64,000 nt of DNA from Spirochaetales bacterium (GTDB lineage: Bacteria > Spirochaetota > Spirochaetia > DSM-2461): assembly GCA_016936555.1 (NCBI GenBank), contig JAFGXR010000001.1:1-64000 (forward strand), written 5' to 3'. The notes under the pieces are model-generated. The model was not told the origin of the DNA, did no database searches, and saw nothing but the letters and a program-made list of their open reading frames with translations. The position numbers and the translations under genes were made by a program. Shown in pieces: positions 6,467-54,172 of this stretch; position 1 is the stretch's first letter, and every line of letters begins with the position of its first letter.

Positions 6467-6868
6467 CTATCGTTCCCTTAATTCGTCCAGGGCGTTGTAG
6501 GGAAATAATTCACCTATTGTGGATTCCGTATAATCTTTATCATTTCCGGAAAAAAATATAGGAAAATCGCTACTTGTGAACTCACTTATTACCTGACGGC
6601 AGGCTCCGCAGGGGCTTACAGCGTAATCCGCATCGGGGCAGTGGATGGCAAGTGCTTTAAAGTCTTTTTTGCCTTTGGACAGAGCGGTAAATATGGCACT
6701 TCTTTCCGCACAGTTTGTAAGACCAAATGATCTGTTCTCGATATTCGCTCCGGTTATTATTTCTCCATCAGTGCAGAGCAATGCAGCTCCCACCCGGAAT
6801 TTTGAGTATGGAGAATAGGAATATTGCGCTGCTTTTTCTGCTTCTGAAAAAAGAGTCTCTTTATCCAT
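6467..6868 (-). CDS. cdd: cytidine deaminase
   Basis: NIENRSFGLTNCAERSAIFTALSKG and SPCGACRQVISEF zinc motifs. Confidence 0.95.
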   Translation of the reverse strand: MDKETLFSEAEKAAQYSYSPYSKFRVGAALLCTDGEIITGANIENRSFGLTNCAERSAIFTALSKGKKDFKALAIHCPDADYAVSPCGACRQVISEFTSSDFPIFFSGNDKDYTESTIGELFPYNALDELRER

Positions 6869-6953
6869 ATCGTGTCTCTCCTTTTCTGTGTTTGACAGTT
6901 TTTCGTCTTGTTGATACTATAAAAGCTACTAATAATAAACAATTGCGGGTCTA

Positions 6954-8015
6954 TTGTACATGGGAAAAAAAGGCTATTTCGCTACACTTTTCGTATTACT
7001 GCTGTTTGTTTTCTTTCTTTTCCCGATTCCGACTGGGGAAGAGCGGTATCTTGTCCCCGAACGGGTTATAGATCTCGATAATCAATCCATTTTTCATCAC
7101 ACAGCGGATAGAGATTCGGGGCTTTATGCTTTCTCTCTGGGAGATTATTTCGGATATTTTTCTGGGAATTTCAGACTTTCATATTCGGGAATAAAGAACT
7201 TCGGTGTTGCTATCGGGGATCTGGCCTTTATAAATTACAGCAAAGTCCCGGGAATTCTGGATATTCAGAACAATAACGGTGAGGGGCGATCCATTATTGA
7301 AACAGCCGGTTATCCTGTTATCCGGGACGATAGAATTGTGATTCTCTCTGAAGATTATATCAGCTTCTATGACCTGGAGGGAAATCTGTTCTGGGAGAAA
7401 GAGATTCTTTCCTTTGTTACATCACTATCAATAACCCGTGGGCTTGTTCTGATCGGATACCTGGACGGTTCCTGTGAACTGATTGCCGATTCAGGAGAAG
7501 TTGTTCTTGCTTATCGTCCCGGAGGGAGCCGGATAGAGGCTATTTACTCTGCAGCCGTTTCCGGAGACAGTCAGACCGTTGCCCTGATTGCCGGTCTTGA
7601 TCCGCAACGGTTTATCATTCTGGAGAAGAGGAAAAACGAATATAAAACGGTTCAGCACTTCGAGCTTGATGCTCAATACCGGCGAACCGTCGATATGTAT
7701 TTTTCATCCGATAATACTGAAATCTTTTTTGAAAACCCCGAAGGGGTGAATGTATACAATATCTTTTCGCAGGAGTTCAAAACCATCGGCGGATCGGGTA
7801 GGCTTGAAAATATATATCTGGATGAAAGTTCGGGTTTCTATTCTCTCCTCCTGAATGAGGGGAATCGTGCGGTCTTGAAAGTTCTTACTCCTGCAAACCG
7901 CAATCTTTATGAAAAGGAAATACCCGGTGAAGATTTTTATTTCAGGAAAGAAGGTGATAATTATTATATCGGATTCGACAGTAAGCTCATGTTTCTGAAA
8001 ATGGAGAATGGTTGA
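6954..8015 (+). CDS. hypothetical membrane-anchored beta-propeller-like protein
   Basis: N-terminal TM (YFATLFVLLLFVFFLFPIP) and repeated beta-rich segments. Confidence 0.65.
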   Translation: MYMGKKGYFATLFVLLLFVFFLFPIPTGEERYLVPERVIDLDNQSIFHHTADRDSGLYAFSLGDYFGYFSGNFRLSYSGIKNFGVAIGDLAFINYSKVPGILDIQNNNGEGRSIIETAGYPVIRDDRIVILSEDYISFYDLEGNLFWEKEILSFVTSLSITRGLVLIGYLDGSCELIADSGEVVLAYRPGGSRIEAIYSAAVSGDSQTVALIAGLDPQRFIILEKRKNEYKTVQHFELDAQYRRTVDMYFSSDNTEIFFENPEGVNVYNIFSQEFKTIGGSGRLENIYLDESSGFYSLLLNEGNRAVLKVLTPANRNLYEKEIPGEDFYFRKEGDNYYIGFDSKLMFLKMENG

Positions 8016-8863
8016 TGAAGAAAATATTGGCGGTTCTTCTTTTTTCACTAAGCCCTTCTCTTTTTGCCTTTCAGTGGCCTATTGCCGGAGGTTTTTTAAC
8101 AGCCTCTTTCGGAGAAAACAGTAGAGAATCTTTTCTGAAGGGAATTCACATATCTGGGCCGGGGAGCATAGTCTCTCCCTTTCTGAGCGGTGAACTTATC
8201 TATTACGGTAATGTGGAGGATCAGCAGGCTCCTGTTCTGGGGAATGTCAAGGTTCTTCATCACGAGAATGGTTTCCGTTCGATTTACGGACATCTCGAAC
8301 CTTTTTCCGGTGAGCAGAAGGTCTATCTGGAAGAACGGGATCAGCTCGGTCTCATTGGAGATTCAGGGCGTACAGATGAGAAAAATCTGTTTTTTATGGT
8401 TTATGATACTAAAATGAATCAGTATGTAAATCCTCAGATTATATTGCCGCCCTCGGGAGATTCAACCCCTCCCCGTATCGAATCTGTAACATTGAAATCA
8501 TTGGAGAGCCTCGTTTTTCTCAATGACCGGAACAGTTTGAGATCCGGCAGAGTTCAGGTTTATGCCCGTATCGTCGATTCAGACGGAAGTGTGTCCCGTA
8601 CTATAGAAACAGTTCCCTACAGCATAACTATGTTTTATCTGGGGAATGAAATAAACCAGATAAAATTTGATACATTGAAAGAGGAAAATGGAAAGTTGGT
8701 ACTTCGTGGCGGGCATCCAGTAACATTTAAGGATTTGTACAATGATGAATCGCTGTTTTTAGGTGAGATCTACCTGAACCGCGGTATCGGATATCTGGAG
8801 ATTTCCGCCTCTGATATAAGCGGCAATAATAGTGTCAGAACATTCCAGTTGAATATAGATTGA
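8012..8863 (+). CDS. M23/LytM-like protein with degenerate metal site, secreted
   Basis: Signal peptide; WPIAGGFLTASFGENSRESFLKGIHISGPGSIVSPFLSGELIYYGN...IYGHLEPF aligns with the LytM fold but the first HxxxD ligands are not conserved. Confidence 0.7.
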   Translation: MMKKILAVLLFSLSPSLFAFQWPIAGGFLTASFGENSRESFLKGIHISGPGSIVSPFLSGELIYYGNVEDQQAPVLGNVKVLHHENGFRSIYGHLEPFSGEQKVYLEERDQLGLIGDSGRTDEKNLFFMVYDTKMNQYVNPQIILPPSGDSTPPRIESVTLKSLESLVFLNDRNSLRSGRVQVYARIVDSDGSVSRTIETVPYSITMFYLGNEINQIKFDTLKEENGKLVLRGGHPVTFKDLYNDESLFLGEIYLNRGIGYLEISASDISGNNSVRTFQLNID

Positions 8864-33325: not shown

Positions 33326-33946
33326 ATGGCGAGTGCAGCCGGCAATGTCTTGAAAATATTTCTGCTATTGCTTCTCATAGCGGTATTGATTGTGGGAGGC
33401 GCTATCTGGTTCGATTACCTGGGGGTTATCGATGCCAAGGAGCAGCTGTCTCCCGTCACCTCACTCCTGGGGATTAAATCGCCGGAAGTGATTGAAGAAG
33501 TTTCCCAGCCTATCGTTCTGGACCGCGAAAGAATGAATATGCAGATCGAGGCACTCGACCTGCTCCGCGATGAGCTGGCTAAGCGGGAAGCGGCTGTCCA
33601 GCTGTCCGAGGCGGAAATCCTCCAGAAGCAGACGGAACTGGAAGAGAGGGAGAAGGCGCTGGACGAAAAGGAGAAATCTATTAACGATGCGCTGAACCGC
33701 TATAACAACAAGCAGACGAATCTGGAACAGAACGCCCGGTATCTGGAAGGCATGCCGCCGGAAGACGCCGTGAATATCATGATGAAAATGGAAAACCTCG
33801 ATGTGGTCGACGTTCTGAGAACCGCCGAAAGACTGGCTCAGGAGGAGGGGCGGAACTCTCTGGTTTCCTACTGGATTTCCCTTATGACGCCGGAAAAAGG
33901 GGCGGCCATCCAGAAGTTGATGGCCGATGAGCCGAAAACCAATTGA
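33326..33946 (+). CDS. flbB: FlbB-like periplasmic flagellar protein (MotE/MgtE-N-like)
   Basis: N-terminal TM, coiled coil, EGMPPEDAVNIMMKMENLDVVDVLRTAERLAQEEGRNSLVSYWISLMTPEKGAAIQKLM; spirochaete gene order. Confidence 0.8.
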   Translation: MASAAGNVLKIFLLLLLIAVLIVGGAIWFDYLGVIDAKEQLSPVTSLLGIKSPEVIEEVSQPIVLDRERMNMQIEALDLLRDELAKREAAVQLSEAEILQKQTELEEREKALDEKEKSINDALNRYNNKQTNLEQNARYLEGMPPEDAVNIMMKMENLDVVDVLRTAERLAQEEGRNSLVSYWISLMTPEKGAAIQKLMADEPKTN

Positions 33947-33949
33947 TAG

Positions 33950-34425
33950 GTGGGACTCTATTACTACGGATTCAGGGATTACAGTCCGGTGATGCAGAGA
34001 TTTACGACTGTTGATCCCATAAAAGCAGGTAGCAACTGGTATTCCTATGTGTCCAATGACCCTGTGAATCTGATCGATCCGTTCGAGTTGACGGAGAGTG
34101 ACTCTCAATCATCAACAAATCCTTTTGTGATATGGGCAGAAAAACCAAATGGAGCACCTTTGACTGATGCTGAAGCAGCTGTACAAACAGGCATTGGATC
34201 TGGAGAAATGGTACTCGGCGCAGCAGGTGTTGTTGTCTCGGGAACTGCTTCTACCGTTGGTGGTGCATATGGATTTTCCCATCGTTATGGGCTATGGCTG
34301 ATGGTGCAAATTTAATTAGTGAAGTACAAAATAATACCAAAGCTACACCTGGGGATATGTTTATTCAACTTGCAAGCACGTTGATTAATATGGGTGATAT
34401 TGATTTCGTAGTTCCGCTACCTTAG
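33950..34425 (+). pseudogene. RHS-repeat core C-terminus plus variable tip, truncated 5' and frameshifted
   Basis: GLYYYGFRDYSPVMQRFTTVDPIKAGSNWYSYVSNDPVNLIDPFEL (RHS core motif); in-frame stop at 34313-34315, but the alternate frame continues A MADGANLISEVQNNTKATPGDMFIQLASTLINMGDIDFVVPLP* to 34425. Confidence 0.75.
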
Positions 34426-34433
34426 GAGAAATT

Positions 34434-34649
34434 ATGACTCAAACAATTATTGCGTTATCAGCATTTGTTATATTTGGTCTCTTTATCTCTATTATATCAA
34501 TACGTAGATATTTGAAGTTTCGAAATTTGAAAGATGATATGAAGTTAAGGAAGAAACAGGTAATTTCAAGCATAATTGGAATGGTTCTAGGGATACCTGT
34601 GACACTGTTCTTTATTTATGTTGTCTCAGTTCTTATTTTTAATTCTTAA
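34434..34649 (+). CDS. small two-TM protein, candidate immunity protein for the RHS tip
   Basis: MTQTIIALSAFVIFGLFISIISIRRYLKF...IIGMVLGIPVTLFFIYVVSVLIFNS; starts 8 nt after the RHS tip stop, with RBS aggaga. Confidence 0.55.
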   Translation: MTQTIIALSAFVIFGLFISIISIRRYLKFRNLKDDMKLRKKQVISSIIGMVLGIPVTLFFIYVVSVLIFNS

Positions 34650-34939
34650 TAATGGATTTGTATATGTTTATATTTTGAGCCCCGATGTTCTCAGAATGTT
34701 GGTTCTGGGAATCCAAAGGGTGATCTTAAAAGACCAGCAGGTCCAGCCCTCCGCCGTCGTGGCTTCGGGCTTAGACAAAATTTTCGTTTTAGTCAGCCGG
34801 CATCCGTGCCGGCGGTTCGTTCGCTTTCGCTCACCAGAAAACGAAGATTCTGAATCCATCGGAATAAAGCGCGCTTTGCTTGCATTGCACATTGTTCGAG
34901 GCTGCGAGTCTCGCCTCTCATCTGCAAGTTGTATAAATG

Positions 34940-34979
34940 CGGTCAGTTGATTTTGAATTAAGAATCAGCTGACCGTTTT
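34940..34979. repeat. hairpin (13-bp stem) followed by TTTT, possible terminator
   Basis: cggtcagttgatt-ttgaattaag-aatcagctgaccg. Confidence 0.6.
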
Positions 34980-35332
34980 GCGTTTCTGGTTAAAGTGTAT
35001 ACTGTTACAACGGCGGCGGGATTCTTCGAAACCATCACCTTTTATATCCGCCGACAGATCCGGTCAAAAAACCTCATTCTGAGGATCTTTTACCGGATCA
35101 GTCGTTGTTTCAACTGGTATCCAGTCATGTGACCGGATTGAGAAATCCGCTCAACTCTGAGTGGGGAAGTCGCACAGAATCTCGGATATCGGGCGAGCTT
35201 GCGAGCGAACAGCCGCTAGGATACCGTCCGCTGATCACATACCCTTGATGTGTGATTATTAAAAAGGAAAAAACCTGTGAGAACAGATGAAAGAGAGGTA
35301 CATTAGTGTTAGAGTATGACAGGAGGATCAGT

Positions 35333-35578
35333 ATGTCATCGGAAATGAAAGATTATGAATTGAACGGACGCATAGACAAGAATCATCATCTGGTGATCGA
35401 GGAGAAAGACATTCCTCTTGATCCTCAGGATGTGACAATCATTGTACGCCCGAAAAGCGCCGAAGACAGAAAAGCCCGTTTCGAAAGACTCAAGGCACTT
35501 CAGGGTTCATTGAAAGATTGGGGTGTCGATGGAGTCGAGTATCAGAGAGAACTGCGGAAAGAATGGGATAACAGATGA
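35333..35578 (+). CDS. VapB-like antitoxin
   Basis: MSSEMKDYELNGRIDKNHHLVIEEKDIPLDPQDVTIIVRP...GSLKDWGVDGVEYQRELRKEWDNR; RBS aggagg; overlaps the PIN gene by 4 nt. Confidence 0.8.
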   Translation: MSSEMKDYELNGRIDKNHHLVIEEKDIPLDPQDVTIIVRPKSAEDRKARFERLKALQGSLKDWGVDGVEYQRELRKEWDNR

Positions 35579-35952
35579 GATACCTGTTGGACACCAACGC
35601 CGTAGTGTACTGTCTGGAAGGCGTTTTCCCTCTCTTTGAAAAGATATCCTTTGAAGATGAATTGTTTCTCTCCTTTATTTCCCGGATAGAACTGTATTGC
35701 GGCAAGAACAATGAAGATCAGGAGTTTTCGATTCGCCGGTTTGTCAGTGACCTGGTTGAGTTTGAAACAGACGGCGACATTACCGAGCGGACTATCTTTG
35801 TCCGGAAAAAGTATGGGCTGAAAATTCCCGATGCGATTATTGTTGCTACCGCTATCGAGAAAGGTTTAACTCTGGTAACAGCTGACAAGGAAATTCTGAA
35901 AAAGGTAAAAGATATTGAGATCATTGATCCTCTGGAATGGTCAAAGGCTTGA
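35575..35952 (+). CDS. PIN-domain toxin (VapC family)
   Basis: LLDTNAVVYCL, ISRIELYCGK, GLKIPDAIIVATAIEKGLTLVTADKEI: acidic PIN residues present. Confidence 0.9.
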   Translation: MRYLLDTNAVVYCLEGVFPLFEKISFEDELFLSFISRIELYCGKNNEDQEFSIRRFVSDLVEFETDGDITERTIFVRKKYGLKIPDAIIVATAIEKGLTLVTADKEILKKVKDIEIIDPLEWSKA

Positions 35953-36007
35953 GATAACTGTTGTTTTTGAATCCTGTACGTGAATCCGAACAGATGATTT
36001 TCTCGAA

Positions 36008-36103
36008 ATGTCTAACTCCATGGGAGCAAAGGCTTTCGGGGGCGTAGGTCTCTATTACTTCAATGCACGGTGGTATGATCCGCAGCAGGTGTATTATATT
36101 TGA
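36008..36103 (+). pseudogene. short RHS core fragment
   Basis: MSNSMGAKAFGGVGLYYFNARWYDPQQVYYI*: GLYYFNARWYDP RHS signature, then truncation. Confidence 0.75.
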
Positions 36104-36156
36104 GGTTTCTTCAAATGAGAGGTACATTAATGTTAGAGTATTCTAGAGGTTGCAGT

Positions 36157-36414
36157 ATGGCAGTAGAAGTGAAAAAGATAGAATTAACAGGTCATGTCGA
36201 CAGGAACGGTCATTTGAAGCTGGAAGCTGATGTTCCATTTAAACAGGGCGATGTAAAGGTTTTACCTGCAACGGGATCTGAAGTAGTCGAAGATGAAGAT
36301 ATCTCGACTATGGATATCCTGAGAACCGCTCAGGCCGGAGGGGCTTTTGATTTTTTGAATGACCCGGAAGAAGATATTTACACTTTGGAAGACGGAGTTC
36401 CATTTAATGATTAA
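36157..36414 (+). CDS. antitoxin-like protein with N-terminus related to the VapB-like protein at 35333
   Basis: VKKIELTGHVDRNGHLKLEADVPFKQGDVKVLP matches KDYELNGRIDKNHHLVIEEKDIPLDPQDVTIIV by eye; C-terminus DPEEDIYTLEDGVPFND; overlaps a MazF-like start. Confidence 0.75.
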   Translation: MAVEVKKIELTGHVDRNGHLKLEADVPFKQGDVKVLPATGSEVVEDEDISTMDILRTAQAGGAFDFLNDPEEDIYTLEDGVPFND

Positions 36415-36520
36415 AGGAAAAATTGTTCTGGCGCCGTTTCCTTTTACCGACTTAACATCGAGTAAAGTAAGACCTGTCTTATGCCTGTCCGAGCACATCG
36501 GTTCACATAAGTATATTTAG
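36407..36520 (+). pseudogene. truncated MazF/PemK-family toxin
   Basis: MIKGKIVLAPFPFTDLTSSKVRPVLCLSEHIGSHKYI*: typical PemK N-terminus, stops after 37 aa. Confidence 0.75.
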
Positions 36521-36679
36521 ATCGCCGTCAATGGCCATTTCAAAGTATTCCCGAAAACCCGGATCATTCTCCAGCCGGAAGTTGAATTCTCCGGATTTCA
36601 AATATTCGATTGCCCCGGACCAGGGAAGCTGAAAAAAAAATCCATAATTCAATCCGCAAATAATTTCACTTAACCAACT
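36503..36679 (-). pseudogene. unidentified reverse-strand coding remnant without start
   Basis: Open frame SWLSEIICGLNYGFFFQLPWSGAIEYLKSGEFNFRLENDPGFREYFEMAIDGDLNILM*; no family recognised. Confidence 0.3.
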
Positions 36680-36725
36680 TTAAAAACGGTCGAAAATTAA
36701 AAAGAGTAAACATCCTGGAGGATTT

Positions 36726-38120
36726 ATGACCTCAACGATAAACGCTCTTATGCAGTCCGGCCCGCCGGAACAGAAGAGCCGGATTACAAAAACGGAAAGC
36801 CCTTCCCGGCAGGACGGCTCCGATAACCGCTTTAAAGACTCTCTCGAAAAAGCCATGAACGGCAATGAAGAGAAAGAAGCGGCAAAAAGCGGCGAAAAAT
36901 CAGAAGCGACTGCGGTTGCTGACAAAAAAGAAGTCAGCGATGTAAAGAAGAAATCTGAATCAGCAGACGGTGAAAAGAAACTCTCATCTGAAAAAACTCT
37001 CAATTTCCCCCGGGGAGATAAAAAACCGGTTTTGAAGATCAAGGGAGAAAAGTCCGGCGAAGAAGATTCTGAAGATGTTTCAAATGAGTCGGTTTCTCAG
37101 CTTATTGATAATGAATCAATAAAAAAGAGGCTTTCAACTGCCAGAGCAAATGATTCAGAAAACTCCCGGCGAATAGTAAAAAAAGATGAAAAGCCTTCAG
37201 GCGGGGCAGTAAAAGACCGGAGTCCCGAACAGATTGTCTCCGGGAATCCTCTGGAAACAGAACATGTTGTTGATGATAAATTGAAATCCCTGATGCCTGA
37301 AAAGGAACGGAAGATTTCTGATTCCGAAGAAAAAGGTGCGGAAAGCGTAATAATCCCCTTCCCGAAAGCAGGCGATAGTAAAACGGCGGAAATGGCATCT
37401 GCTCAGAATCAGGCATCTGAAAAATTTGTCAGTACGGCAAAAGAGCCGGCTTCCAGGCTGAAGAAAGGCAAGGATGAGCCGGTCCTGACCGTTATCGATA
37501 CCCGATCCAAAGGAGCGGAGAACCGGGAGACGGCCCAGGGGCTCACAAAAGCATCAGCCTCAGTGGAAACGACGGACCAAACCTCGAAGGAATCGAACCA
37601 GATCGTTCTCGGGGAACAGGCTGCCGATAAAGCTTCCGGAGAGGAAACCAGATCATTTCAGAGCCGCTTTACTGAAAACCGGGAAGTCGTGCTGGCCCGG
37701 GAATTGCGGGAATCGGGCAATGAGCAGATTGTCAGAAAAGCTTCGTTTATTCTCAAGGACAGCAACCAGGGTGAGATCAGACTCATCCTCAAACCCGAGG
37801 CTCTGGGGCAGGTCAAAATTCATCTCGATATGAATGAAAACAATTTAGTCGGAAAAATTATTGTCGAGAATCATAGGGTGGGACAGATCTTCGAAAACAA
37901 TCTGAGCAATCTGTCCAAAGCCTTTGAGGAAGCCGGAATCAGCAGTTCATCCATTGAAGTGACAGTGGGAGACGGCAACGGCCGGAACGGGGGAAACCAA
38001 GCCTCGCGGGAAGATCAGCCCTTCTTCAGCGAAAGACTTAAAACCCTTGATAAGGCTGTTCCCTCGGTAGAACGGATGGCTTCCGGTCTGGGAACACAGC
38101 ATATCAATCTGGTCATATAA
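36726..38120 (+). CDS. fliK: flagellar hook-length control protein FliK
   Basis: Low-complexity charged N-terminus; C-terminal ASFILKDSNQGEIRLILKPEALGQVKIHLDMNENNLVGKIIVENHRVGQIFENNLSNLSKAFEEAGI. Confidence 0.92.
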   Translation: MTSTINALMQSGPPEQKSRITKTESPSRQDGSDNRFKDSLEKAMNGNEEKEAAKSGEKSEATAVADKKEVSDVKKKSESADGEKKLSSEKTLNFPRGDKKPVLKIKGEKSGEEDSEDVSNESVSQLIDNESIKKRLSTARANDSENSRRIVKKDEKPSGGAVKDRSPEQIVSGNPLETEHVVDDKLKSLMPEKERKISDSEEKGAESVIIPFPKAGDSKTAEMASAQNQASEKFVSTAKEPASRLKKGKDEPVLTVIDTRSKGAENRETAQGLTKASASVETTDQTSKESNQIVLGEQAADKASGEETRSFQSRFTENREVVLARELRESGNEQIVRKASFILKDSNQGEIRLILKPEALGQVKIHLDMNENNLVGKIIVENHRVGQIFENNLSNLSKAFEEAGISSSSIEVTVGDGNGRNGGNQASREDQPFFSERLKTLDKAVPSVERMASGLGTQHINLVI

Positions 38121-53383: not shown

Positions 53384-54172
53384 ATGGCTGACAATATTAT
53401 AAACGGCATTCCCGAAGCGGAATTGTGGAGCAGATACAGAAAAACCAGAGATGCCGGTATCAGAGATGCGATTATCAAGCAGTATGCCCCGCTGGTAAAA
53501 TACGTGGCGGGCAAGGTCTCCATCGGTATGCCCCACAATGTGGATTTTGATGATCTGGTCGGGTTCGGTGTTTTCGGTCTCTTTGATGCTATTGAAAAAT
53601 TCGATCCGGAAAAGCATGTTAAATTTAAAACCTATGCCGTAACGAGGATCCGGGGCTCGATTATCGATGAGCTCAGGTCGATAGACTGGGTTCCCCGGTC
53701 GGTCCGGCAGAAAAGCCGTGAACTCGATGAAGCCGTGCAGAGGCTGGAATCGAGACTCGGCAGATCGGCAACCGATGAGGAAATCGCATCTGAGATGAAT
53801 CTCGATCAGGATGATTTCAACCGCGTTATGCTCAAGGTCAGCGGGACCTCTCTTCTTTCTCTCAATGATATCTGGAACAGCGGTGACGAAAATGATAAGG
53901 TCTCGCTTGTCGATACGATAGAATCTCCCTCTAGCCTGCAGCCGGAAATGATTGTGGAAAAAGAGGAAATTAAAAGGGTTATAGTCGAAGCGATACAGAA
54001 TCTTCCGGAGAAAGAGAAGAAAGTGCTCGTTCTTTATTATTACGAGGATCTGACTCTCAAGGAGATCGGAAACGTTCTGGATGTAACGGAATCCCGTATT
54101 TCACAGCTCCATACCAAAGCCATTTCCCGGCTGAGAGCAAAACTGACGAATGTGAAAAAGGGAATTATGTAA
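53384..54172 (+). CDS. fliA: FliA/WhiG-type RNA polymerase sigma factor
   Basis: [117 protein letters not shown]. Confidence 0.96.

Follow-up and report, generated by a model that had tools for sequence, protein, structure and literature searches.

In the 64,000-nt stretch of Spirochaetales DNA analysed here (the window), the flagellar gene row is interrupted between flbB and fliK by 2.7 kb of Rhs and toxin-antitoxin fragments. Taken as a whole, the arrangement is quite probably explained by two transcription units that meet at the flbB-fliK junction, a seam at which fliK would possess its own sigma28-type promoter and in which the island would have landed with little polar effect. The first unit would run from flgB to flbB and end after flbB, while the second would start at a promoter located at 36670-36696 and comprise fliK, flgD, flgE and motAB on towards fliA. 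A decayed patch, i.e., the 3' end of an Rhs locus together with two toxin-antitoxin pairs (antitoxin-PIN and a second, broken one), would have come to lie in the inter-unit spacer, where it carries a strong putative terminator, with the fliK promoter and ribosome site left intact. The island and the seam represent a fresh instance of known things: an ordinary decayed Rhs/toxin-antitoxin patch at an interesting seam.

The flagellar gene row and its insert

The genes on both sides of the insert were described as tightly packed in the initial annotation, which is borne out by the spacings observed: fliG, fliH and fliI are separated by gaps of 24 and 9 nt, fliI, fliJ and flbB touch or overlap, and fliK is followed by a gap of 16 nt. 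From fliK to fliA, the genes are located on a single strand with all gaps at or below 146 nt. The coordinates of an Rhs/toxin-antitoxin island inside this row also hold, as the flbB stop codon ends at 33946, an Rhs frame opens at 33950 and fliK begins at 36726. The proposed extent of the accessory DNA, about 2.8 kb reaching up to fliK, stands for the foreign sequence from 33947 to ~36661 and not for the last 64 nt (36662-36725), which constitute the native fliK leader. The features are as follows:

33326-33946, + strand: flbB, encoding the periplasmic flagellar collar protein; intact, and the final gene ahead of the seam (NF047368 collar_FlbB, E 5.2e-74)
33947 to ~36661 (2.7 kb), no strand given: the Rhs/toxin-antitoxin insert, not present at the junction in G001, G002, G003 or any further relative examined
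33950-34315, + strand: Rhs core tail and C-terminal tip (TIGR03696, E 3.8e-14, above the curated cut-off)
34434-34649, + strand: small membrane ORF of 71 aa (ORF list; no family match)
34737-35192, + strand: noncoding Rhs 3'-flank repeat (75-83% identity matches in congeners)
34939-34976, + strand: strong intrinsic-terminator-like hairpin of 16 pairs with a T-rich tail (-24.6 kcal/mol, z -6.7)
35306-35578, + strand: antitoxin-like ORF 1, start possibly at 35333 (weak NF050107, E 0.1)
35575-35952, + strand: predicted PIN-domain (VapC-type) toxin, intact ORF (PF01850, E 5.1e-14)
~36044-36100, + strand: second Rhs core scrap, truncated at both ends, with the GLYYFNARWYDP motif (TIGR03696, E 0.013, below the cut-off)
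36130-36414, + strand: antitoxin-like ORF 2, start possibly at 36115 (weak NF050107, E 0.04)
36407-36520, + strand: truncated MazF/PemK-like toxin start of 37 aa (named by eye)
36662-36725, + strand: native fliK leader (60/64 positions identical to G002)
36670-36696, + strand: sigma28-type site TTAA-N15-GTCGAAAA, 29 nt before the fliK ATG (motif score)
36726-38120 (ATG at 36726), + strand: fliK (hook-length control), intact, first gene of the predicted downstream unit (PF02120, E 1.7e-14)
53384-54172, + strand: fliA (sigma28), further down the gene row that contains fliK (TIGR02479, E 3.7e-88, over the cut-off; match 53471-54148)

The ORFs and profiles agree with the contents proposed earlier (an RHS tip, a membrane protein, a PIN pair, an RHS fragment, an antitoxin and a truncated MazF, the last being named by eye), and the recognisable island genes are on the same strand as the flagellar operon. 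The frame that opens at 33950 harbours an RHS-associated core domain (TIGR03696, 52.9 bits versus a cut-off of 32.5). It does not represent a full-length Rhs protein, with 121 aa and profile positions 29-73 of 76 left; intact Rhs proteins of ~1,680-1,700 aa are encoded elsewhere in the genome, on contigs C57 and C77. The tail is probably frame-shifted near 34290, with a continuation in another frame at 34294-34425. Based on its position, the 71-aa membrane ORF may encode the immunity protein of the Rhs tip.

The noncoding Rhs 3'-flank repeat is also found behind Rhs tips in two of the three congeners, G002 (two copies, both on G002:C4) and G003 (G003:C518). A motif of 30-56 bp within the noncoding part of the island (window 34866-34921) is a dispersed repeat that recurs on several contigs of the source genome, including G000:C36 and G000:C74, and in G001. 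The second Rhs scrap exhibits 80-95% DNA matches to Rhs cores within the class.

Antitoxin-like ORF 1 overlaps the PIN toxin gene by 4 nt and has a homolog in G003:C404 (NF050107, E 3.5e-4). A PIN domain with an adjacent antitoxin identifies the two as a predicted VapBC-type pair, in which the antitoxin is assigned by its position and a weak profile. The likeness to VapBC consists of a PIN toxin with an overlapping upstream antitoxin ORF, whereas the antitoxin, like its counterpart ORF 2, weakly resembles the RelN family and not a VapB profile. A homolog of the complete pair is present at G003:C404 650-1281, where the PIN toxin is apparently broken. ORF 2 has a homologous antitoxin in G003:C161. 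The 37-aa MazF-like ORF returned no match in Pfam and NCBIfam profile searches, and its label as truncated reflects a longer homologous stretch found in G002 (G002:C5).

Origin of the patch

Regions of Rhs orphan tips, or displaced C-terminal modules, offer the closest likeness to the island, as there, too, short core tails precede tips and small ORFs; G030:C4, for example, carries arrays of repeated Rhs core ends. The island differs from such regions in that decayed remnants are all that is left, interspersed with type II toxin-antitoxin genes.

An active mobile element, or an array of cassettes equipped with mobility genes, might be suspected from the related island pieces that congeners carry at other sites and from the two further patches of Rhs fragments and toxin-antitoxin genes in the source genome (on C106 and C82, giving three in all). 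This is very improbable, however, as several of the island genes are broken and neither an integrase, a transposase nor terminal repeats were found in the island (ORFs, Pfam, repeat search). Furthermore, the check for a target-site duplication that had been suggested did not find a direct repeat joining the two ends of the island, all Rfam matches within it fell well short of a family's gathering score, and a PADLOC scan returned zero matches. The island appears to be a decayed Rhs/toxin-antitoxin patch, in which no sign of an active element was seen. An assembly error or contamination is hardly credible: the assembly is a draft of 134 contigs, but the island is internal to a 98.5-kb contig, its pieces best match the same genus, and a second copy is absent from the assembly.

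The patch on C106 (G000:C106 4897-6916) contains an Rhs fragment and BrnT/BrnA, and is flanked by ArfB-like and valyl-tRNA synthetase-like genes (both named by eye). That on C82 (G000:C82 4128-4975) consists of an Rhs core fragment that continues into a short, unrelated tail and, behind it, a 123-aa ORF that is nearly identical to one beside the Rhs gene of G002:C4. In the latter contig (G002:C4:266100-286000), a block with an Rhs end and ParA-like and primase-like genes is present twice, 9.8 kb apart, with two tyrosine-recombinase-like ORFs between the copies (6577-8462, by eye); this block is possibly an element or a tandem duplication.

The fliK leader and its predicted promoter

The 60/64 identity of the fliK leader to that of G002 compares with 53% identity across the 725 fourfold-degenerate sites in five neighbouring genes (P ~1e-12), and 44/48 positions remain identical when the ribosome-site end is left out (P ~9e-9). 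Similarity between the source genome and G002 stops at the insert boundary, and nothing aligns upstream of the leader. At the protein level, FlbB is 94% identical to that of G002 over its full length, and FlbB, FlgD, FlgE and MotA range from 92 to 98%, as opposed to just 61% for FliK; a fast-evolving FliK protein is therefore located behind a strongly conserved leader.

Within the leader, TTAA-N15-GTCGAAAA is the sole full-score site in the 64-kb window and displays the features of a sigma28 (FliA) promoter, i.e., a -35 element of TAAA or TTAA, a spacer of ~15 and a GCCGATAA-like -10 element. FliA itself is encoded in the window. Each of the genus's four species has a flagellin gene preceded by the form TTAA-N15-GTCGARAA, and other flagellin genes of the genus have a different, canonical TAAAGT...GCCGATA form; the sigma28 promoter of Treponema denticola flaB2 has been mapped as TTAA / CCGATAA (PMC9481697). 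Genome-wide, the motif is not above chance (12 hits versus 19 in a reversed-pattern control), and its weight thus derives from its position, its conservation and its match to flagellin promoters. A scan for sigma70-type promoters gave chance-level results. The site before fliK is a predicted sigma28-type promoter, assigned from its sequence.

Comparable elements are present in the short, island-free spacers of two congeners. That of G002 combines a terminator-like hairpin (11 pairs and a T tail, z -4.2) with the promoter site, and that of G001 is a weaker version, with a weak hairpin (z -0.97) and TAAA-N15-GTCGACAA. If such hairpins act as terminators, the upstream transcript would end after flbB in at least the source genome and G002.

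The flbB-fliK seam in spirochaetes

The distance between flbB and fliK is 146 nt in G002, 279 nt in G001 and 17 nt in G003, and Rhs or toxin-antitoxin genes were not found at this junction in any of these three congeners. The wider comparison of relatives, which had been recommended as a check, located island genes at the junction in the source genome only. Among the 104 Spirochaetia genomes with a judgeable junction, flbB and fliK are adjacent in ~94, mostly at 50 nt or less, some spacer lengths being approximate because a few start codons are uncertain. Four genomes (G086, G087, G071 and G120) were ambiguous due to contig ends or start calls, and in two (G035 and G038) contiguity can be traced up to the contig ends only. 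The spacers of the source genome, G001 and G002 are exceptions to the tight junction, and complete splits are observed in seven genomes, namely those of genus g3 (G005, G010 and G014), part of family f26 (G050, G070 and G101) and G046, in agreement with the earlier suggestion of a recurrent breakpoint. G072 was also considered as a split genome and rejected, as flbB directly precedes fliK.

In the three f26 genomes, the fliK block and the flgB-flbB block are parted at the junction that corresponds to the seam of the source genome; the two halves are side by side in the latter, whereas the split genomes have a separate cluster that begins with fliK. The site TAAA-N16-GCCGAAAA precedes fliK in G050 and G070. 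Sigma28 scores in the g3 splits and G046 were not above those of shuffled sequences, and a link between splitting and sigma28 is therefore not general on these data. No sigma28-type site was found before fliK at the tight junction of G003, and a direct comparison of scores with the tight group would be unfair because their upstream DNA is coding.

The Treponema gene tap1 is, we presume, fliK. Where PMC6557892 touches on this operon, it describes the T. denticola 'PFla' as sigma28-recognised, citing the tap1 paper, and a sigma28 'fla' promoter as heading the tap1 operon. To that extent, the Treponema 'fla' operon resembles the arrangement described here, with a hook-to-motor block that starts at fliK and a sigma28-type site before it. 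In Borrelia burgdorferi, fliK belongs to a 26-gene flgB operon, at a distance of 8 bp from bb0286, and sigma28 is lacking (PMC4032328), consistent with the statement in the initial annotation that these genes are contiguous in Borrelia. This superoperon resembles the tight relatives in that fliK, flgD and the bb0286 gene are side by side, and differs from the present arrangement as one 26-gene operon lacking sigma28.

Because the leader and its sigma28-type site also occur in G002, the nearest relative, which lacks the island, the seam is probably older than the insertion. A similarity search found no trace of island sequence in the G002 spacer. That spacer was also considered as a scar of the island, for which no matching sequence was found, and an island-first order is not favoured. 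Seam first and island second is the simplest reading, given the leader shared with island-free G002 and a G002 spacer devoid of island traces, and it is most likely that the island landed in a pre-existing seam. G003, which has a tight junction and no seam, is placed as sister to G001 (support 0.908); the seam would therefore either go back to the ancestor of the genus, with a loss in G003, or have been gained twice.

A single operon, with read-through from flbB across the island into fliK and with the leader acting as an untranslated or translation-control element in place of a promoter, is unlikely. The tight packing and presumed co-transcription of flbB and fliK in most relatives would fit such an operon, as would the orientation of the recognisable island genes, but the 16-pair hairpin with its T-rich tail and the good terminator in the G002 spacer argue against it, and the leader shares its motif and spacing with flagellin promoters of the genus. 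Conversely, the hairpin inside the island might block fliK and all later genes, yielding a strain that is non-motile or expresses them poorly. Such an outcome is highly improbable, as fliK through fliA are open and packed without visible decay and the native fliK leader is intact. The initial annotation had predicted a polar effect of the island on fliK and the genes that follow, which is probably incorrect given the conserved leader and sigma28-type site directly before fliK, shared with G002. Under the preferred reading of two units, the island probably does little harm because fliK keeps its own conserved flagellin-type start signal, and little polarity is expected of it, since the promoter and ribosome site are unaffected. 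As a caution, polarity should not be assumed from gene order alone.

The junction makes operon breakage comparable across species at a defined point, from tight (G003), through a spacer with terminator and promoter (G002 and G001) and foreign cargo (source genome), to full separation (g3 and part of f26). It is conceivable, though rather less than probable, that flbB-fliK is a recurrent regulatory seam of spirochaetes, at which a sigma28 promoter was gained more than once, rendering the hook, export and fliA half FliA-autoregulated, and which then became a tolerated site for foreign DNA or operon fission. If the predicted sigma28 promoter is real, the hook, motor, export and fliA genes of the source genome would be under FliA control; this departs from the textbook order, which places fliA and the hook at the beginning, and raises the question of start-up. 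Should transcription start mainly at the fliK promoter, FliA would drive a unit containing its own gene together with export genes, and another promoter or leakage must then start the loop.
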